A stretch of DNA of 8,465 nt, taken from NCBI GenBank assembly GCA_028748945.1, contig JAQTOL010000119.1, forward strand, positions 1-8,465, given 5' to 3'. Both the position numbers and the translations under genes were made by a program. Below the pieces are notes generated by a model that saw only the letters and a list, made by a program, of their open reading frames with translations, did not search any database and was not told the origin of the DNA. The DNA comes from Paludibacter sp. (GTDB lineage Bacteria > Bacteroidota > Bacteroidia > Bacteroidales > Paludibacteraceae). Position 1 is the stretch's first letter. Every line of letters begins with the position of its first letter. Positions 1,744 to 8,465 of the stretch are shown here, piece by piece.

Positions 1744-2565
1744 ATGAAAAAAAGTATATTTATAATCTTAGTTTCTGTATTTATTATTTCAGAGTCTTGT
1801 GCAGAAAAAAAAGAATCTGCCACAAAAGTCAGGTTGGAAACAACTTACGGAGATATTGTTGTAAAACTTTATCCAGAGACAGCCAAACACCGGGCCAATT
1901 TTTTGAAACTGGTAAATGAAGGTTTCTACAATGGAGTTTTATTTCACCGGGTGATAGCAGATTTCATGATCCAGGCCGGTGACCCTGATTCTAAAAAAGC
2001 CAAACCGGGTGCCATGTTAGGTTCCGGTGATGTAGGCTATACTGTTCCTGCCGAATTTATCTATCCTCAATACTATCATAAGCGTGGAGCACTAGCATCG
2101 GCCCGTCAGGGTGACGATACGAATCCTTTGAAGGCTTCTTCGGGTTGTCAGTTTTATATTGTTCAGGGACGTCCCTTTTCAGATGAAGAATTAAATAATC
2201 TGGAAATGAAAAATGAACAAAAATTGAAAGACAAATTGTTTACTGAAATTTTAAATACGAAACAAGTTGAGCTAAACCAATATAAACTGGAACGAAGTCA
2301 AACAAAACTGGATGCATTACGTGATTCCATTCTGGCGGAAGTGAATATCCGGATTGAAAAAGATTCAAGCTATAAATTTACCGCACAACAGCGCAATGAT
2401 TACCGAACCATTGGAGGAACACCCCATTTGGATGGTGCATATACTGTTTTTGGCGAAGTTGTTGAGGGATTGGATGTAGTCGATAAAATTTCCAAAACAA
2501 AAACCGGTCCGTATGACAGACCGGTTGAAGATATTCGGGTAATTAAAGCGGAAGAGATTAAATAG
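1744..2565 (+). CDS. Exported cyclophilin-type peptidyl-prolyl cis-trans isomerase
   Basis: The 273-residue product starts at ATG 1744, which gives a typical export signal: MKK, a hydrophobic core (residues 4-16), then Cys19. The residues before Cys19 (SES) fit a lipobox poorly, so lipidation is possible but not certain. The mature part is a cyclophilin domain (about 28-145 and 223-273) that catalyses cis-trans isomerisation of X-Pro bonds in periplasmic or outer-membrane clients. Active-site equivalents of human CypA are visible: FHRV with Arg69, FMIQAGD with Phe74 and Gln77, GCQFYIV with Gln136, and HLDGAYTVFGEV (228-239) with Leu229. Tyr233 replaces the CypA His, as is common in bacterial members. 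A charged, probably helical insertion (about 146-222) splits the domain before the last strands, making the protein longer than a minimal cyclophilin. It is transcribed alone, divergent from the symporter and convergent with the DUF4301 gene. Confidence 0.93.
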   Translation: MKKSIFIILVSVFIISESCAEKKESATKVRLETTYGDIVVKLYPETAKHRANFLKLVNEGFYNGVLFHRVIADFMIQAGDPDSKKAKPGAMLGSGDVGYTVPAEFIYPQYYHKRGALASARQGDDTNPLKASSGCQFYIVQGRPFSDEELNNLEMKNEQKLKDKLFTEILNTKQVELNQYKLERSQTKLDALRDSILAEVNIRIEKDSSYKFTAQQRNDYRTIGGTPHLDGAYTVFGEVVEGLDVVDKISKTKTGPYDRPVEDIRVIKAEEIK

Positions 2566-2584
2566 TTTATAGTTGTTAGTTGTT
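2564..2584 (+). repeat. Heptad array A (3 units, AGTTKWT-like)
   Basis: Three consecutive 7-mers: AGTTTAT, then AGTTGTT twice. A degenerate fourth (CATTGGT) may follow. The first unit overlaps the TAG stop codon of the isomerase gene. It is the same word family as array B at 2810-2844 but in the opposite orientation, so each convergent gene ends in a copy pointing into the spacer. Confidence 0.6.
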
Positions 2585-2646
2585 CATTGGTCGTTTTAAA
2601 AGTGCTATTTCTATGTTTGTTGAAAACAAGAAATGAAGAAAATTAA

Positions 2647-2662
2647 ACGCAAAGACACAAAG
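2647..2662 (+). repeat. Degenerate 8-bp direct repeat (ACGCAAAG, ACACAAAG)
   Basis: Two adjacent 8-mers differ at one position inside the 280-bp convergent spacer. A GGCGCCAAGAA-like block lies 45 bp downstream (2707-2717). From memory, CGCAAAG-type short repeats occur in spacers of various environmental bacteria; no function can be assigned. The remaining spacer between 2585 and 2810 holds the hairpin at 2716-2737 and otherwise only AT-rich sequence. Confidence 0.35.
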
Positions 2663-2715
2663 TTATTCAAAAATATAAGTATCATGTATATATTAATTTA
2701 ATAAAAGGCGCCAAG

Positions 2716-2737
2716 AATAAAACGAAACCGTTTTATT
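2716..2737. terminator. Candidate bidirectional intrinsic terminator between convergent genes
   Basis: A perfect 9-bp inverted repeat: AATAAAACG (2716-2724), loop AAAC, and CGTTTTATT (2729-2737), with a possible G-T closing pair outside. A-rich 5' and T-rich 3' arms make it usable from either strand. It sits 150 bp after the isomerase stop and 108 bp after the DUF4301 stop. The stem has only two G-C pairs and there is no long T run beyond it, so its strength is uncertain. Confidence 0.5.
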
Positions 2738-2809
2738 TGGGAAACAAGTTTTTACTTTAGAATAATCCATTGAGGTTAATAATCGATAGCAAATTAAAAA
2801 CGACTTTTT

Positions 2810-2844
2810 TATAACTATATACTATAAACTACCAACTACCAACT
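2810..2844 (-). repeat. Heptad array B (5 units, AGTTGGT family)
   Basis: Read on the minus strand, five consecutive 7-mers: AGTTGGT twice, then AGTTTAT, AGTATAT and AGTTATA, decaying with distance from the gene. The array begins one base after the TAA stop of the DUF4301 gene. It is the inverted counterpart of array A. Confidence 0.7.
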
Positions 2845-2845
2845 A

Positions 2846-4363
2846 TTACTGGTGTTCGGGGCGCAGTAAATCATTCACGGTTTTTACCGGATTAAATGTT
2901 TCGATGGGCACTTCAACAAAAATACTGTTCCAGTCGCTCATGGCTCCGTTCCAAAGTCCGGGAAGTTCCAATGCTTTCAATTCTTTTCCACTCTTGGATT
3001 TTAACGAAATAAAACCGGTTTTTTTATCCACCTGTTTCAATAAATCGAACTTTTCGCCTTTATAGTTTTTTACAGCACACACCAGATCAACCGGATTAAA
3101 GTGTGTCGACTGCTGCATTTTTTCTTTATCGGAAGGATTATTCATATCTATCTGAGAACTTTCCAAAATTTGTGGTGATACTGTTCCATCTTCATTTACC
3201 GTAAGAAAAGGACCACCGCCTGGTTCACCCACATTTTTTACCATGCCGCAAACCCTAATCGGACGATTTAATTTGCCAATCAAATAGTTACGAAGATCGA
3301 TAGGGGATAAGCTTTGCAAGTTCGGATGAAAATTATTCAACCGGGCTTCGCAGAACCGGGCAATCACGACTAGTTTAGCCTGCGAAATCGATTCGTTTTC
3401 CAGTTCATGTAAATACGAAAAACATTGTTTCTGGATATTTACCAATATTCCGGCAATAACTTTTTTATACGTAACCGTCACATTCTTCTTTGAATCAGGT
3501 ACTACATTGTCAATATTCTTAATGAATATGATATCTCCATCCAGGTCATTGAGGTTTTCGATCAGTGCACCATGTCCGCCGGGTCGGAAAAGTAATTCTC
3601 CATTTTCACGAAAAGGTTCGTTATTACTGTCGGCTGCCAGTGTATCGGTAGACGGTTTTTGTTCCGAGAAACTCACATCATATGATACTCCCAATTTTTT
3701 TTCGTATTCTTTTTTCGTTTCATTCAACTGTTTTTCAAAAAGGTGGCGATGTTCTTTCGAAACAGTAAAGTGAATCTTTGTATTTCCGGATGAATTGCTG
3801 GCATACAGAGCTCCTTCAACCAGATGTTCCTGAAGCGGTGTACGTTTTTCGGTTGGGTAGGAGTGGAACTTAAGCAATCCTTTTGGAAGAGAACTGTAGT
3901 TTAATCCTTTGTCAGTCAGTAAATTTTCAACTATAATTTTGAATTGACCCGATTCCAGGAGTTCGTTTATGGTTTTGCCGTTGTTATGGATACAAACCTT
4001 GTTCAAATCGTCGTAAAAAGCAAATTTTTCAATTTCGTTGAAGAATTTTTTTTCGAATGCATTTCCCGGATTGTCATGCTTATTTTCCAGAAACTCAAAA
4101 AGATCTTTAAACATGCGACTGGCTGCTCCTGAAGCCGGAACAAATTTCAGGATACTTGCTTCTGTTTGCAAATACTCATCCCAATGGTTTAACCAAACCG
4201 GTATTTCTTCTTCGGCAACCTGAACAATTCCTTTTCCGGGTTCAGCAGCACTTCGGATTTCCAGGTAGGGAAATCCAACTACGAATGATTTTAGCTGTTC
4301 CTCTATCTGCCGGATAGAAATTCCGCGTTTATGTAAATTGGCTTTGTCGCTTGCTGTCAACAT
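2846..4363 (-). CDS. DUF4301 family protein, probably nucleotidyltransferase-like
   Basis: The 505-residue, apparently cytoplasmic protein has no signal peptide or membrane segment. I recognise it as DUF4301, a family seen mostly in Bacteroidota, at about the family's usual length. Blocks in order: FVPASGAASRMFKDLFEF (74-91), FAFYDDL (114-120), FHSYPTEKRTPLQEHLVEGA (166-185), KIHFTVSKEHRHLFE (196-210), LLFRPGGHGALIENL (257-271), FIKNIDN (280-286) and GEPGGGPF (379-386). The glycine/serine loop followed by Arg, the PGGHG block and the IDN block with an acidic residue resemble, in the same order, the nucleotide loop, PGGHG/PGGNG block and metal-binding Asp region of UDP-sugar pyrophosphorylases. 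I therefore infer a GT-A-like nucleotidyltransferase fold; the substrate is unknown. The ATG at 4363 matches the N-terminus I remember for the family. The lipoprotein gene lies 90 bp upstream on the same strand. Confidence 0.88.
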   Translation of the reverse strand: MLTASDKANLHKRGISIRQIEEQLKSFVVGFPYLEIRSAAEPGKGIVQVAEEEIPVWLNHWDEYLQTEASILKFVPASGAASRMFKDLFEFLENKHDNPGNAFEKKFFNEIEKFAFYDDLNKVCIHNNGKTINELLESGQFKIIVENLLTDKGLNYSSLPKGLLKFHSYPTEKRTPLQEHLVEGALYASNSSGNTKIHFTVSKEHRHLFEKQLNETKKEYEKKLGVSYDVSFSEQKPSTDTLAADSNNEPFRENGELLFRPGGHGALIENLNDLDGDIIFIKNIDNVVPDSKKNVTVTYKKVIAGILVNIQKQCFSYLHELENESISQAKLVVIARFCEARLNNFHPNLQSLSPIDLRNYLIGKLNRPIRVCGMVKNVGEPGGGPFLTVNEDGTVSPQILESSQIDMNNPSDKEKMQQSTHFNPVDLVCAVKNYKGEKFDLLKQVDKKTGFISLKSKSGKELKALELPGLWNGAMSDWNSIFVEVPIETFNPVKTVNDLLRPEHQ

Positions 4364-4453
4364 AGTATATAAGTTTTTATGAGTATCTGTTCTTGTGCTC
4401 TCTCTTCTACTTATCGGGTAACCGACTGGTAGAAATGTAATTCTAAAGGATAA

Positions 4454-5503
4454 CTACTTCTCATCCAGTTGTTTTTTCAGTATCGCAATTTCATTTTTAC
4501 GTATAGTCAGGTCTCCCACATATTCCGACATGCGATTCAGTGTTTCGGAATTGGTAAATTCAAGTAATCCAAAGGATTTAAAAGAAAGTGTTGCGTATTG
4601 AAGTGCCTTGTCAATATCTCCGATTATTTCGTATGCTATAGCAATATTGTTTTCCGCCTGAGCTTCAATCCATGTACTGTGACTGGTTTCTTTTGCCTTT
4701 TCCCAATAATTAATAGCACTATTCCAGTTTTTTACATAAACGGAATCCATCCCTTGTCTCATTAGACGATTTCGGGGATTAAAAAAATAACGATCCACTT
4801 TTTCCCAATGAGGAACAAACCGGTTTATGGAATGCTGACCTACATACAAGGCCCCATCAATCAAAGCATCCTGTCTTTTGGGAAGATCCGAAACGGCTTT
4901 ATGTCTGTTATATGATTCCGATTCCCAATAGAGCGTGTCTTTAAATTGAACGGTGTTGATTTTTGGACTGTTTGGGTAATTGATGCTCCAATGGGTCTCG
5001 AACCGCAATTCCAGGGTTGCTAAATAGCTGCCGTTTTCAGGAATGAAAAATTCAGATAAATCATCATTCACTTTGATCTGGTCGAGCGATAAAATGACAT
5101 TGGATTGCGTGGAATTGCAAAGGCTTTTCACTGAGTCATGTTCCAACCGGTTAATGACACTAAAGTCAGTGTTTGTATTCTTTGAATCGGGTAATAAATT
5201 AACGGACGAAAAGAAATCCTTTCCTTCCAACTCTTGTTTTAAAGCAGCCAGACAAAAAATCGGGAGACTATCGGAGGATAACAAAACATACTTGGTTCTT
5301 TCGTTGAGTAGTTGGGTCTTATGTCCTAATTCCGGTGGTTGGGTCACAGTGTTGTTTAGCAAAAGCAAATTAGTTGCTTCTGCTGCAAAAGCTGTTTTTG
5401 CCGGACGTAAAACATCCAGACTGGTAAACAACAGGCTGGTGCAGGATGAGAGGAAAACAGCTCCAAAAGCCAGTGTTATGATTTTTAGTTTGTATGTTTT
5501 CAT
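4454..5503 (-). CDS. DUF6340-like lipoprotein with C-terminal TPR-like helices
   Basis: The 349-residue product begins with a clear lipoprotein signal: MKTYKLK, a hydrophobic core, and the lipobox LSSC with Cys21. It should be anchored in the cell envelope, inner or outer leaflet not known. Just after the anchor is a VLRPAKTAF segment (31-39). That segment and the overall length recall the Bacteroidota family DUF6340, an assignment I make from memory with moderate confidence. The middle (60-230) is mixed alpha/beta with no motif that I recognise. Residues about 248-313 look like one and a half to two TPR-type helical hairpins (AINYWEKAKE, then AENNIAIAYEIIGDIDKALQ at 283-302), suggesting protein binding. 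The end (about 334-349) is a charged possible coiled coil. The spacer upstream holds a hairpin and a candidate -7 element. No enzymatic function is indicated. Confidence 0.88.
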   Translation of the reverse strand: MKTYKLKIITLAFGAVFLSSCTSLLFTSLDVLRPAKTAFAAEATNLLLLNNTVTQPPELGHKTQLLNERTKYVLLSSDSLPIFCLAALKQELEGKDFFSSVNLLPDSKNTNTDFSVINRLEHDSVKSLCNSTQSNVILSLDQIKVNDDLSEFFIPENGSYLATLELRFETHWSINYPNSPKINTVQFKDTLYWESESYNRHKAVSDLPKRQDALIDGALYVGQHSINRFVPHWEKVDRYFFNPRNRLMRQGMDSVYVKNWNSAINYWEKAKETSHSTWIEAQAENNIAIAYEIIGDIDKALQYATLSFKSFGLLEFTNSETLNRMSEYVGDLTIRKNEIAILKKQLDEK

Positions 5504-5528
5504 AATAGGACGTGTGCTGATTAAATTT

Positions 5529-5543
5529 TCGAAGGAACTTCGA
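5529..5543. promoter_or_regulatory. Perfect 6-bp inverted repeat in the lipoprotein gene leader
   Basis: TCGAAG, three bases, then CTTCGA, lying 25 bp upstream of the lipoprotein ATG and downstream of its candidate -7 element. In RNA it would form a compact hairpin near the start codon; in DNA it could be a small operator. No regulator is identified nearby. Confidence 0.3.
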
Positions 5544-5587
5544 TTGAAACCTTATAATGATAATGATTTTGTTTTTCTATTACACTA

Positions 5588-5595
5588 CAAAAATA
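5588..5595 (-). promoter_or_regulatory. Candidate -7 element for the lipoprotein gene
   Basis: On the minus strand this reads TATTTTTG, a full match to TAnnTTTG. It is the same 8-mer as in the candidate isomerase promoter. No clear -33 element is seen. It implies a leader of about 75-80 nt that includes the inverted repeat at 5529-5543. Confidence 0.4.
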
Positions 5596-5604
5596 GTACA
5601 ATAG

Positions 5605-5632
5605 ATTAATTATGTATTATAAATTGTGAATT
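5605..5632 (-). repeat. Heptad array C (4 units, AATTNAT-like)
   Basis: Four consecutive degenerate 7-mers on the minus strand: AATTCAC, AATTTAT, AATACAT, AATTAAT. The first unit overlaps the TAA stop of the PhnP-like gene by two bases. This is the least convincing array because simple AT-rich DNA can mimic it. Its period and its position at a stop codon match arrays A and B. Confidence 0.4.
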
Positions 5633-6371
5633 AAATTTTAAGACCATCGTAAGCTAACTGAATATGATCCGGTAAAATTTGATTGACTTCATCGTGCAAA
5701 CCCATATCATGACTCATATGCGTGAAATAAGTTTCACGTGCCCCGATTTTTTTTGCGATTCCGATTGCTTCTTTTAGGGATAAATGGGAAATATGTTCGT
5801 TTATCCTCAAGGCATTCAACACCAGCACATCCAGATTTTGAAGTTGTTCAATGGCTTTATCTTCTATGGTTTTCACATCGGTCAGGTAAGCAATATTCCC
5901 AAATCTGTAGCCCAGAATCGGTAATTTTGCGTGCATGACCCGTATGGGTTGCACTTTTATATTTTCAATCTGAAATTCTTTTTCGTCAATCTGATGCAGA
6001 TGAATTCTCGGAACGCCCGGATAAGTATTTTCTCCAAAACAATAGGGCATATTCCGTTGAATTACATTCAATACTTTTTTCTCGGCATACAGTTGTGCTT
6101 CACCCAGCGGCCGGACATCGTCGAGTCCACCTACATGATCATAATGTTCGTGTGTCAGCAGAATAGCAGATAAACGATTCACATCGTAGGTCAGAAGTTG
6201 TTGACGGAGATCGGGGCCACAATCAATTAATATCTGTGTAGTACCTTCGGTTATCAGAACCGATGCCCGTAAGCGATTATCTTTTTTATCCGTCGACCTG
6301 CAAACCTTGCATCTGCATCCGATTTGCGGGATTCCGGTCGAAGTCCCGGTTCCAAGAAAAAGTATTTTCAT
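5631..6371 (-). CDS. PhnP-like metallo-beta-lactamase-fold phosphodiesterase
   Basis: A complete 246-residue cytoplasmic MBL-fold hydrolase. The N-terminal GTGTSTGIPQIGC (7-19) is followed by Cys19, Cys21 and Cys24, a cluster that in PhnP binds a structural zinc with a C-terminal His. The metal-binding motif is THEHYDHVGG (73-82: His74, His76, Asp78, His79). Further ligands are His147 (VMHAKLPILGYR), Asp165 (YLTDVKT) and His218 in THMSH, with His221 as the likely fourth structural-zinc ligand. PhnP hydrolyses phosphoribosyl 1,2-cyclic phosphate in the C-P lyase pathway, but no phn gene lies in this window. The substrate could be that cyclic phosphate or another cyclic or diester nucleotide. 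Start ATG 6371; a heptad array begins three bases upstream. A separate transcript from the methyltransferase gene is likely, given the 213-bp repeat-filled spacer. Confidence 0.9.
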   Translation of the reverse strand: MKILFLGTGTSTGIPQIGCRCKVCRSTDKKDNRLRASVLITEGTTQILIDCGPDLRQQLLTYDVNRLSAILLTHEHYDHVGGLDDVRPLGEAQLYAEKKVLNVIQRNMPYCFGENTYPGVPRIHLHQIDEKEFQIENIKVQPIRVMHAKLPILGYRFGNIAYLTDVKTIEDKAIEQLQNLDVLVLNALRINEHISHLSLKEAIGIAKKIGARETYFTHMSHDMGLHDEVNQILPDHIQLAYDGLKI

Positions 6372-6374
6372 TTA

Positions 6375-6410
6375 ATCATTTACCATTTAATCATTTACTA
6401 TTTACTATTT
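6375..6410 (+). repeat. Heptad array D (5 units, AYYATTT)
   Basis: Units read on the plus strand: ATCATTT, ACCATTT, one extra A, ATCATTT, then ACTATTT twice. All differences are C/T at positions 2 and 3. The array starts three bases upstream of the PhnP-like start codon and runs directly into array E with no gap. Confidence 0.75.
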
Positions 6411-6480
6411 AAGAGCCAAGAGTCAAGAGCCAAGAGCTAAGAATCAAGAGCCAAGAATCAAGAGCCAAGAATCAAGACTA
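6411..6480 (+). repeat. Heptad array E (10 units, AAGAGCC/AAGAATC)
   Basis: Ten gapless 7-mers: AAGAGCC four times, AAGAATC three times, AAGAGTC, AAGAGCT and a terminal AAGACTA. AAGAGCC and AAGAATC alternate in the last half. The first nine units differ from each other only by transitions. The period of 7 excludes coding use. It lies in the spacer upstream of the PhnP-like gene. Confidence 0.9.
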
Positions 6481-6505
6481 GATTGTCTGAAGTGAAAAAT
6501 CAAAC

Positions 6506-6533
6506 AACTCAAAACACGAAACTCAAAACTTAT
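6506..6533 (+). repeat. Heptad array F (4 units, AACTCAA)
   Basis: Four consecutive 7-mers: AACTCAA, AACACGA, AACTCAA, AACTTAT. It is a third distinct word within the same 213-bp spacer, separated from array E by 25 bp of unrelated sequence. Confidence 0.55.
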
Positions 6534-6560
6534 CTATAATTCATTACTTATCCCTCTATT

Positions 6561-6583
6561 CCCCCCTTTAAGGGGTCAGGGGG
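6561..6583. terminator. GC-rich palindromic block at the methyltransferase gene's end
   Basis: A C6 run, TTTAA and a G4 run form a near-perfect palindrome (6563-6575), followed by a second G5 run (6579-6583). The block stands out strongly in an AT-rich spacer and begins two bases after the methyltransferase stop codon on the minus strand. A C-arm/G-arm hairpin could halt transcription or protect the mRNA 3' end, but no U-tract follows. From memory, similar blocks occur in other Bacteroidota spacers, so it may be a dispersed repeat instead. Confidence 0.4.
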
Positions 6584-6584
6584 T

Positions 6585-7916
6585 CTAAATCTTCATCCGA
6601 ATTCTCCATTCCTGCGGATATAAATTATTGCATCGGTTTCCTACATTTTTGACCCAACCCAAAGGTTGATTTTTATACGAAATTAATTTATACCCCCGGC
6701 TTGTTTCAGGAAGCTGAATAGCTTCTTTTTTTAGAAATGAAATAGCGGTACGGTAATCAACATCTATATTTTCAACACTTTCTCTGTTTAATTTTTTAGA
6801 AAGTGCCATGCAGGTTGAAGGTATAAAGTCCGACCCTTTAATTTCGCCGGCTAATATTCCTGAATGCATGCAGTTCAACGATTTGTTTAATAATAAAAAA
6901 TCTTCCAGTCTCCCTTTATCGTATGCCTTTATCAGATTGTTTTCGGGCAAAAGAATCCAACGTTCGGGTTCCAGTAAACTTAACGATTGAATGTCGGTTT
7001 TATTGGTTGTTTTCCCTGTTTTCTTATTTTCCCGATGATTTTTCAATTTTCTGTCCGAAAGGGAAGTTTTTCGAAGTACGGATAAGAAGAAACCTTCACC
7101 AAGGGTTTTGTGCGGATAAAACCGGTAACCGAAACCGCTGACGGTTATATCCTGATTTCCCTGTAAGTCAAGGTTTAATAGTTCGGCACCCAGTTCATTA
7201 CAAATCCAGCTTACATTGTCTTCATTTTCTTCGCGGTTAAAAGTACAGGTACTGTAAACCAAAATACCATCCGTTTTAAGGGTATCCCATACGGATGAAA
7301 GAATATCCCGTTGACGTTGAGCACATAGAGTTACATTGTATTCCGACCATTCATTGATGGCATCCGGATCTTTTCTGAACATCCCTTCACCGGAACAGGG
7401 AGCATCAATCACAACCGCATCGAAAAAACCGGGAAGAGATGAAAAATCCTTTGCTTCGTTATTGGTTACCACCACGTTTGGATTTCCCCATTTAATAATA
7501 TTTTCTGCCAGAATATAGGCCCGTGACCGGTTAATTTCGTTGCTTACCAACAGACTGCTTTCAGGCAAAGCCTGACTCAACAACGTGGATTTTCCACCCG
7601 GTGCTGCACAAAGGTCAAGTACAGTATGTGCCTTGCTGAAATGTTGTTTGACGGCCTGATACAGAAACATGGAACTGGCTTCCTGTACATAATATATTCC
7701 GCCATGAAAAAGCGGATCAGCGGTAAAAAGCGGCCGTTCTTTCAGATAGAATCCCTGTTCGCACCAGGCTACCTGTTCGTCCGAGGGATGATAATCGATC
7801 TTGTCATTTACCCGTATGCTGGTGGGAGCAGGGATTTCAAACGCATCCTGCAATGCCTGATATTCATCTTTTAGAATGGCTTTTGTACGTTGAACAAAGG
7901 CATCGGGTAAGGTCAT
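6585..7916 (-). CDS. rRNA cytosine-C5 methyltransferase, NOL1/NOP2/Sun family (RsmF/YebU-like)
   Basis: Starting at ATG 7916 the protein has 443 residues (MTLPDAFVQRT), as expected for this family. An in-frame TTG at 7928 would add four residues but lies at the edge of a tandem repeat. The catalytic domain shows the SAM loop VLDLCAAPGGKST (99-111), motif IV DAPCSGEGMF (171-180) with Cys174, and motif VI YSTCTFNREENEDNV (221-235) with Cys224. Both cysteines of the RNA m5C mechanism are present: one is the nucleophile on cytosine C6, the other assists product release. The C-terminal part (about 315-443) carries the PUA-like end with GYKLISYKNQPLGWVKNVGN (408-427) and NNLYPQEWRIRM, typical of RsmF-like proteins, which modify small-subunit rRNA. 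The exact base cannot be inferred. A basic linker (about 284-306) joins the domains. Confidence 0.92.
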   Translation of the reverse strand: MTLPDAFVQRTKAILKDEYQALQDAFEIPAPTSIRVNDKIDYHPSDEQVAWCEQGFYLKERPLFTADPLFHGGIYYVQEASSMFLYQAVKQHFSKAHTVLDLCAAPGGKSTLLSQALPESSLLVSNEINRSRAYILAENIIKWGNPNVVVTNNEAKDFSSLPGFFDAVVIDAPCSGEGMFRKDPDAINEWSEYNVTLCAQRQRDILSSVWDTLKTDGILVYSTCTFNREENEDNVSWICNELGAELLNLDLQGNQDITVSGFGYRFYPHKTLGEGFFLSVLRKTSLSDRKLKNHRENKKTGKTTNKTDIQSLSLLEPERWILLPENNLIKAYDKGRLEDFLLLNKSLNCMHSGILAGEIKGSDFIPSTCMALSKKLNRESVENIDVDYRTAISFLKKEAIQLPETSRGYKLISYKNQPLGWVKNVGNRCNNLYPQEWRIRMKI

Positions 7917-7927
7917 GAGATTATCCA

Positions 7928-8018
7928 ATTTACGATTTACAATTTATAATTTATAATTTACAATTTACGATTTACAATTTACGATTTACAATTTACGATT
8001 TACAATTGATGATTTATT
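7928..8018 (+). repeat. Heptad array G (13 units, ATTTAYR)
   Basis: Thirteen gapless 7-mers: ATTTACG four times, ATTTACA five times, ATTTATA twice, then ATTGATG and ATTTATT at the right end. ACG and ACA forms alternate regularly from 7963 to 8004. The first eleven units vary only at positions 6 and 7, always as pyrimidine then purine (CG, CA or TA). The array fills most of the spacer between the HIT gene and the methyltransferase gene and would lie in the methyltransferase mRNA leader if the -7 element at 8041-8048 is used. Confidence 0.92.
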
Positions 8019-8040
8019 TTTTGTTATAAATTTTATGTCA

Positions 8041-8077: not shown

Positions 8078-8465
8078 TTATAAGCAACTTGCAATTTTTT
8101 CAATGATTTCGGCATATCCGGTATCACTCAGGTAAATTTTTTGAGGATTCATTTCAAAGGTGCCTCCAAATTCAAATTCGTCTTTGTATTTTGGAACCAG
8201 ATGAAAATGAAGGTGTCCCAATTTATCGGAATAAGCGCCATAGTTTATTTTTGTCGGAGATAAGGCTTTTTGCATAGCCGAGGCAACCCGACAAACATCA
8301 GCCATATAGGCATTCCTGTCTGTTTCTGAAAGCTCAAAAAGCTCATTTACATGGTCTTTATAAGCTAGCACACAACGCCCCGGGTGACTCTGTTCTTTAA
8401 ACAGAAAAAGGGTGGACACACTTAAATCACAAATTTGTATCATTAAGCTTTTCTGTAAGTCGTTG
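8078..8465 (-). CDS. HIT-family nucleotide hydrolase/transferase, probably 5'-truncated by window edge
   Basis: From the ATG at 8443 the product is 121 residues, but the frame stays open to the right edge (NDLQKSL before the Met). Relatives I remember carry a CxxC segment and an LMIEIC-like stretch just before CDLSVSTLFLFKEQ, so the true start probably lies outside the window and Met8443 is internal. The histidine triad is HLHFHLV (77-83 from that Met), with His79 the expected nucleophile. The INYGAYSDK block (66-74) and the FGGTFEMNP block (92-100) support the domain. HIT proteins hydrolyse or transfer nucleotides through a nucleotidyl-histidine intermediate, for example AMP from dinucleotide polyphosphates or adenylated substrates; the natural substrate here is unknown. 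It is cytoplasmic. The methyltransferase gene follows on the same strand after a 161-bp spacer holding array G. Confidence 0.88.
   Translation of the reverse strand, partial: NDLQKSLMIQICDLSVSTLFLFKEQSHPGRCVLAYKDHVNELFELSETDRNAYMADVCRVASAMQKALSPTKINYGAYSDKLGHLHFHLVPKYKDEFEFGGTFEMNPQKIYLSDTGYAEIIEKIASCL

Follow-up and report, generated by a model that had tools for sequence, protein, structure and literature searches.

Heptamer arrays with genome-specific words in the intergenic spacers of a Paludibacter genome and its relatives

We analyzed a stretch of 8,465 nucleotides from Paludibacter sp. (GenBank assembly GCA_028748945.1, contig JAQTOL010000119.1), hereafter the window, whose intergenic spacers carry tandem arrays of short units that mostly repeat with a step of 7 bp. 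In this genome and its relatives, we found an excess of period-7 arrays, a bias of these arrays toward spacers, word dialects particular to each genome, and differences in arrays between sister species. We give somewhat better than an even chance to the explanation that the arrays are made by slipped-strand copying or template switching at about 7 nt per step, and that they are probably neutral, tolerated in the spacers and spread within the genome. A sequence-only reading of the window had claimed seven spacer arrays with unrelated words and one invariant 7-bp period, and had proposed either one generating process or selection for spacing.

The excess at period seven in spacers

The source assembly comprises 3.46 Mb in 540 contigs and is 85% complete. 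We sampled its first 40 contigs, taking at most 20 kb of each, along with 20 others, and dropped from the period counts seven of the latter that had been picked for matching an array region. The remaining 53 unselected contigs cover about 0.75 Mb of the 3.46 Mb, a sample and not the whole genome, and contain 460 spacers (91 kb) and 651 kb of genes, as called by a simple hexamer-scored open reading frame finder. Three sets were used for comparison: 21 stretches of a relative assembled as a single contig of 3.69 Mb (G016), 19 stretches of other members of the genus and 77 Bacteroidales loci.

The spacers of the 53 contigs, without the window, contained 23 arrays at lag 7 against a shuffled mean of 2.2; with the window added, the count rose to 27, whereas 20 shuffles averaged 2.65 and never exceeded 7. 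Lags 14, 15, 21 and 22 were also raised (11, 11, 10 and 10, against 1.2–1.9), as would follow if steps of seven were now and then replaced by one of eight, and lags 16 and 17 were slightly up (5 and 6, against 1.7). Lags 4–6 and 8–13 gave 2 to 7 arrays, against 2.2–4.3 after shuffling. The preference for spacers was clear, since the 651 kb of genes had only 8 lag-7 arrays compared with 23 in 91 kb of spacer. In genes, lags 6, 9 and 12 (20, 17 and 18 arrays) stood above lag 7, as the reading frame demands, and the arrays presumably lie mainly in spacers because a shift of seven would break that frame.

The relatives behaved similarly. Lag 7 reached 19 against 1.6 in the single-contig relative (lag 8, 6 against 0.9), 12 against 0.4 in the other genus members (lag 8, 5 against 0.2), and 35 against 2.0 at the 77 Bacteroidales loci. 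Seven is the highest short lag in all four samples, and it is sharpest in the source genome's own genus. The sharp spacer excess anticipated by the sequence-only reading was therefore observed in the sampled contigs and in the relatives, and the contrary outcome, a spacer distribution with no excess at seven, did not occur: shuffles fell short in the source genome and in the three other samples.

These counts also bear on the idea that the arrays are chance matches or an assembly artefact of a fragmented metagenome genome. The source genome is indeed in many pieces, and two of the seven claimed arrays are weak. However, the same peak appears in the single-contig relative, arrays are present in the isolate genomes of Bacteroides faecis MAJ27 and Bacteroides sp. 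224, and shuffles never reach the observed counts. An artefact is refuted for the class as a whole, and we leave it practically no weight.

Word dialects and turnover between sister species

Next, we compared the words. Ignoring rotation and strand, the consensus words of 92 arrays from 24 genomes fell into 57 classes. Arrays from different spacers of the same genome shared a class in 30 cases; shuffling the genome labels gave 11.4 and never reached 30 in 500 rounds. Words coincided between genomes 20 times, where letter-shuffled words gave 6.1 (and reached 20 in 0 of 2000 rounds); this excess became smaller when real 7-mers of array-free spacers with equal G+C were used as the control, with 6 against 2.3 in the discovery set (23 of 1000 draws reached it) and 4 against 0.75 in the other genomes (4 of 1000). 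Thus, each genome has its own dialect of words, and words recur between genomes. The claim that the words are unrelated does not hold, given these dialects and a common avoidance of one purine–pyrimidine pattern described below.

Searches with family patterns (four units, up to three mismatches, neutral as to position) illustrated the dialects. AACTATA was found in 15 of 40 genus genomes; one of them (G004) gave 93 matches, and G016 gave none. CAGTGAA was found in 7 of 40; G016 gave 42 matches to it, and the source genome none. The AAGAGCC pattern occurred in 15 of the 40 genus genomes, and ATTTACA in 16 of 24 genomes. Three units of AGCTACR were present in 2 of 148 genomes of the order, across which this word is rare. 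A strict AAGARYC triple, sought at 258 loci, was seen only at the position that it has in the window (L001, L145) and in one stretch of another genome (L189, from G014). Among the relatives' loci with an RsmF-like gene, a higher threshold gave a lag-7 array in two (L156, L159), neither with a window word. An ATAGTAA-type array of about 190 bp lies at 2410–2601 of L126, a contig of the source genome picked for its match.

On contig 1 of G016, a pair of CAGTGAA-type arrays occurs near 193.5–193.8, 1438.5–1438.7 and 2294.9–2295.2 kb, with an internal spacing of 231 bases each time; at least one arrangement is thus copied as a block. This triple occurrence, together with the recurrence of the same words and their variants at many loci within one genome and within the genus, would suit dispersal by a mobile element carrying the array, such as a miniature inverted-repeat transposable element or a repetitive extragenic palindrome. 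Such an element should bring its flanks along, but the matches stop at the array edge. With a 766-base query around the longest array of the window, all 23 non-self matches listed lay within 6 bases of the array (7920–8019); the test covered this one array, and 40 of 99 first-look candidates were scored. Flanks are thus not shared for that array. The arms of inverted arrays have neither a constant word nor a constant loop, and no stable hairpin typifies the class: the median folding z was −1.0 in 43 array-bearing spacers of 60–260 bp and −1.16 in 86 array-free ones (p 0.47). We consider mobile-element dispersal quite unlikely. The same folding result left a general role as hairpin or terminator unsupported for the class, with single cases that pair strongly.

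We then compared orthologous spacers in ten pairs of sister loci, 84–94% identical, taken from the ranked list of related loci; a Methylomonas pair, the short pair L036/L038 and lower-listed pairs including L039/L044 were left out. Seven of the 44 orthologous spacers had 7-, 8- or 9-bp arrays in one or both species. In three the array was present in one sister only (L030/L039 twice, L063/L069), and in three both sisters had an array but not the same one: twice in L020/L031 and once in L027/L040, in which one of the two is a poor match at lag 8. In L014/L015 an array of the 8-mer CACATTAG type was kept, with about 2.6 versus about 13 copies, and a 7-mer array after the stop codon was present in L014 only. 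These differences in spacer length and in the presence of arrays speak against selection for spacing.

Proposed slippage or template switching and its rivals

We favor copying by slippage or template switching. According to this scheme, the primer end would anneal again one unit away, at a short repeated anchor, and copy another unit, and loops of seven nucleotides would escape MutS-type mismatch repair. Arrays may then give rise to further same-word arrays at other sites of the genome via short-homology template switches; some of these switches would go onto the opposite strand and leave inverted partner arrays, and frameshift would remove arrays from genes. MutS-type mismatch repair handles loops of about 1–4 nt, and a MutS domain was found in 20 of the 23 genomes searched, including 16 of 16 of good quality.

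Inverted partners were seen for 33 of 144 arrays (11/44, 11/64 and 11/36), against summed null means of 6.2 for random spacers and 12.1 for other array-bearing spacers. Outside the source genome, 22 of 100 arrays had such partners, where the stricter, array-bearing control gave a combined mean of 5.8. The source genome's counts of inverted partners, and of arrays near stop and start codons given below, include the seven contigs selected for their hits.

Several observations weigh against this explanation. The step is not unique, since at the 77 Bacteroidales loci lags 8 and 9 were also raised (21 against 1.5 and 19 against 1.7), and lags 10 and 11 more weakly (7 against 1.4 and 10 against 2.1); of the proposal of one generating process, a step near seven stands, supported by the excess in four samples and by the sister-species differences, and a step of seven only does not. 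No MutS domain was found in the source genome's own 85% complete assembly. The inverted partners of the source genome (11/44) do not beat the stricter control (mean 6.4, maximum 13). A difference in copy number, in one 8-mer array, was seen between sister species, the level at which the comparison was made, and none was seen within a species. What speaks most strongly for leaving room for a rival, however, is the grammar of the words together with the uneven change of their letters, which plain slippage leaves unexplained.

Plain slippage predicts that the words should be drawn from the spacer background. Writing R for purine and Y for pyrimidine, we observed that the alternating pattern RYRY occurs in 2 of 58 word classes where spacer 7-mers would give 16.5, and RRYY in 41 of 58 where they would give 24.2. 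These are two of 16 purine–pyrimidine patterns examined, and RYRY was noticed only at that look. RRYY had first been seen in the discovery set; in the remaining genomes it occurred in 22 of 31 classes, with 13.7 expected (2 of 1000 draws reached it), and more weakly in previously unseen classes (16 of 25, with 11.0 expected; 42 of 1000). A mini-hairpin, in which a slipped loop of 7 nt has a 2-bp stem and a 3-letter loop, was considered as a source of both the seven and RRYY and was rejected, as it showed no excess: 21 of 58 classes could form it with Watson–Crick pairs (20.0 expected) and 42 when G–T pairs were allowed (40.2 expected).

Under plain slippage, all seven letters should also change equally often. 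The changes per letter were 7, 4, 1, 0, 59, 25, 8 for AAGAGCC (41 arrays, 15 genomes); 31, 1, 9, 1, 26, 29, 90 for AACTATA (77 arrays from 12 of the 15 matching genomes, among the matches listed); 2, 3, 3, 6, 47, 1, 35 for CAGTGAA (42 arrays); and 11, 7, 4, 21, 14, 28, 38 for ATTTACA (49 arrays). We attach no p-value to these counts, which are inflated by arrays that are partly kin by descent, and to which array ends add changes at the outer letters. Nevertheless, the two inner units alone gave the same picture for AAGAGCC (0, 2, 0, 0, 28, 13, 2), AACTATA (12, 1, 8, 0, 17, 14, 43) and CAGTGAA (1, 2, 2, 4, 26, 0, 21), and a less clear one for ATTTACA (3, 3, 0, 12, 5, 11, 17). A restriction of the variation to transitions, true of the AAGAGCC array in the window, is not general (119 transitions and 107 transversions in 57 arrays).

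Near-fixed letters are what would be seen if the arrays were selected sites, at which an RNA- or DNA-binding protein reads a core of 3–4 letters in every seven and the rest drifts. The AAGA of AAGAGCC took 12 of 104 changes, A2 and T4 of AACTATA one each of 187, and the CAG of CAGTGAA 8 of 97. A precedent for such binding is CspB, one protein per heptamer on heptamer repeats, as cited in MacGregor 2015 (PMC4679880). Closeness to stop codons was also somewhat above random: 11 of 48 arrays in the source genome lay within 3 nt of one (null 6.1), and 7 of 37 in the others (null 3.7). Start codons gave no clear excess, with 6 of 40 in the source genome (null 5.0) and 6 of 39 in the others (null 4.5). 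Moreover, the cores differ among arrays of one genome, the arrays of sister spacers differ or are missing, and one protein could hardly read AAGA, ACTA, CAGT and ATTT alike. We therefore hold selected sites to be unlikely.

Alternatively, the units might be written by an enzyme dedicated to such copying, either a reverse transcriptase or a terminal-transferase-like activity, in a 7-nt register with an anchor of 3–4 letters and a freer remainder. The period is constant across words and the variation depends on phase, as such an enzyme would have it. In the pooled arrays, 16.7% of the variant letters fell in the most conserved 4-letter window, against 24.4% in a re-detected null (reached in 0 of 400). 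This four-plus-three unit was significant in the first 44 arrays and in the pooled 54, but not in the 10 held-out arrays alone (48 of 400), nor family by family: when the phase counts of the four families were reordered, windows as low appeared in 20–67% of orders. We keep the four-plus-three unit only as a lead, and regard a dedicated enzyme as very unlikely. A broader version, a DNA-copying process of the Bacteroidales with a fixed 7-nt register that anchors on 3–4 letters, rewrites the rest, avoids RYRY and yields dialects genome by genome, strikes us as improbable to the same degree as selected sites.

Arrays and genes of the window

For each claimed array of the window, the best lag-7 score was compared with those of 1000 dinucleotide shuffles of the same spacer. 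Scores at 2810–2844, 6375–6410, 6411–6480 and 7928–8018 were reached by no shuffle and that at 2564–2584 by 5, whereas 6506–6533 was reached by 11 and 5605–5632 by 38. Tandem Repeats Finder reported period 7 at 2570–2584, 2813–2846, 6368–6412, 6411–6470, 6506–6530 and 7926–8007, and nothing at 5605–5632. Of the seven arrays claimed, five are solid; 6506–6533 is marginal and 5605–5632, after seven looks, unconvincing. The units stand head to tail without spacers in the Tandem Repeats Finder output, unlike the repeats of a CRISPR array, which have unique spacers between them, and no Rfam family matched the window.

The gene finder called eight genes in the window. Those around the arrays are ordinary: an SBF-type transporter, a cyclophilin-type isomerase, DUF4301, DUF6340, a metallo-beta-lactamase fold, an RsmF-like rRNA methyltransferase and a HIT domain. 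An array of TAGTTxx units (2562–2595) starts inside the stop codon, TAG, of the cyclophilin-type gene (1744–2565, forward strand) and forms the left arm of an inverted pair; its right side, an AACTATA/AACTACC array (2813–2846), reaches the stop codon of the DUF4301 gene (2846–4363, reverse strand). The convergent spacer between these genes (2566–2845) is thus an inverted pair, with 46-nt arms (2563–2608 and 2786–2831) that are 74% complementary, and 2560–2850 folds with a z of −4.1, an exception to the general lack of structure. In the same spacer, AACGCAAAGACACAAAG at 2647–2663 looks like a short 8-bp repeat.

The weak claim at 5605–5632 is followed by an array of CATTTAC and CATTTAAT (6369–6411) beside the metallo-beta-lactamase-fold gene (5631–6371, reverse strand), of whose ATG start codon its first CAT is the complement. 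It reads CATTTAAT CATTTAC CATTTAAT CATTTAC TATTTAC TATTTA, and its Tandem Repeats Finder score is 65 for period 15 over 6369–6404 compared with 48 for period 7 over 6368–6412. Hence the 7-bp period is prevailing and not invariant: this array mixes eights and sevens, and other steps occur in the order. An AAGAGCC array with the variants AAGAGTC, AAGAGCT and AAGAATC adjoins it (6411–6477), with 14 transitions and no transversion between neighboring units, and the marginal AACTCAA array lies at 6506–6533. The longest array, of ATTTACA, ATTTACG and ATTTATA (7926–8025), lies between the HIT-domain gene (8078–8443, reverse strand) and the start of the RsmF-like gene (6585–7928, reverse strand). Over 7915–8013, it gives a ladder of sigma-70-like promoter matches, many of them 7 bp apart, a warning that such arrays mislead promoter scans. 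As the sequence-only reading had said, the arrays are confined to spacers, bar a few letters of stop or start codons.

We also monitored the region downstream of the DUF4301 stop codon at 65 of 80 loci. A lag test (7–10) flagged nine within about 150 bases (L011, L014, L027, L030, L044, L051, L061, L063 and L077); the others have different sequence there, often, by eye, a plain terminator-like hairpin. Inverted arrays around a loop closely follow this stop codon in L061 (8-bp), in L044, L030 and L063 (each 9-bp) and, by eye, in L037; they lie at the same position in several Bacteroides relatives and carry words such as CACAGAGGA, CACAGATTA and CACGGATTA. They resemble the heptamer arrays in kind, but step by 8 or 9. 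Positions 5604–5677 of L030, from Bacteroides faecis, look by eye like the replacement of a terminator. The DUF4301 protein of two Methylomonas genomes (L017, L018) is 66–67% identical to the Bacteroidales one, a sequence likeness that suggests horizontal transfer.

Known heptamers and the meaning of the arrays

Cyanobacterial short tandemly repeated repetitive (STRR) heptamers comprise several tandem heptanucleotide words per genome; their words and host phylum are other than those described here. Calothrix has three heptanucleotide words, as cited in PMC4692102. The sequence-only reading had known of no named family in the Bacteroidota, but heptamers in this phylum are already published: MacGregor 2015 (PMC4679880) describes TAACTGA repeats in five Bacteroidetes including Paludibacter, as well as in Beggiatoaceae and Cyanobacteria. 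As described there, these are intergenic 7-bp direct repeats, some Bacteroidetes arrays are long, other heptamer direct repeats adjoin some of them, and several have no counterpart in the equivalent spacer of the closest relative, all as in the present arrays. The present arrays differ in that each genome uses many words, and each word comes as a cloud of variants. TAACTGA is absent among the array words of the window, and its class, AACTGAT, occurs in G016.

The GGGAATC and GGGGA(C/T)T repeats of Xanthomonas and Nostoc (Rehm 2015, PMC4692102) are alike in their period of 7, intergenic position, heterogeneous GGGANTN units with some fixed letters, many inverted pairs in Xanthomonas, and variation in length and sequence between sister species, and slippage is mentioned there. 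In contrast to the present arrays, these heptamers are described as G-rich, quadruplex-forming and of a single word; the consensus words of the window contain neither GGG nor CCC. Moreover, 83% of the repeats there are reported to keep their gene context between the two sister species, whereas here the sites mostly changed (7 array-bearing spacers). The P6b stem of the Nostoc tRNA-Leu intron (Kaasalainen 2015, PMC4476775) has Class I TDNGATT and Class II NNTGAGT heptamers, likewise with fixed and free letters, with both stem arms involved and with word class swapped in evolution. Those heptamers are inside a structured intron, and the present arrays are in free spacers with no general pairing excess.

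Mrazek 2007, as cited in PMC4679880 and PMC4692102, found heptanucleotides to be the most abundant among repeats with units of 5–11 nt in most genomes, and proposed slippage on a polymerase-held segment of that length; the passages citing it there mention neither dialects nor word grammar. Therefore period-7 arrays, inverted pairs and the slippage idea (in other bacteria), and heptamers in a few Bacteroidetes, are already in print. No report of many-word heptamer dialects in Bacteroidales was found in the literature searched, where most subscription journals are missing, and the many-word dialects with a shared grammar are apparently new.

Having many words with one step separates the step from the word. 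It offers a way into the question of why seven is so frequent a step in bacterial tandem repeats, and allows the polymerase, repair or a separate enzyme to be tested as what sets it. The arrays are a trap for the annotation of spacers, promoters and terminators, and their dialects might serve as fast markers between close species.

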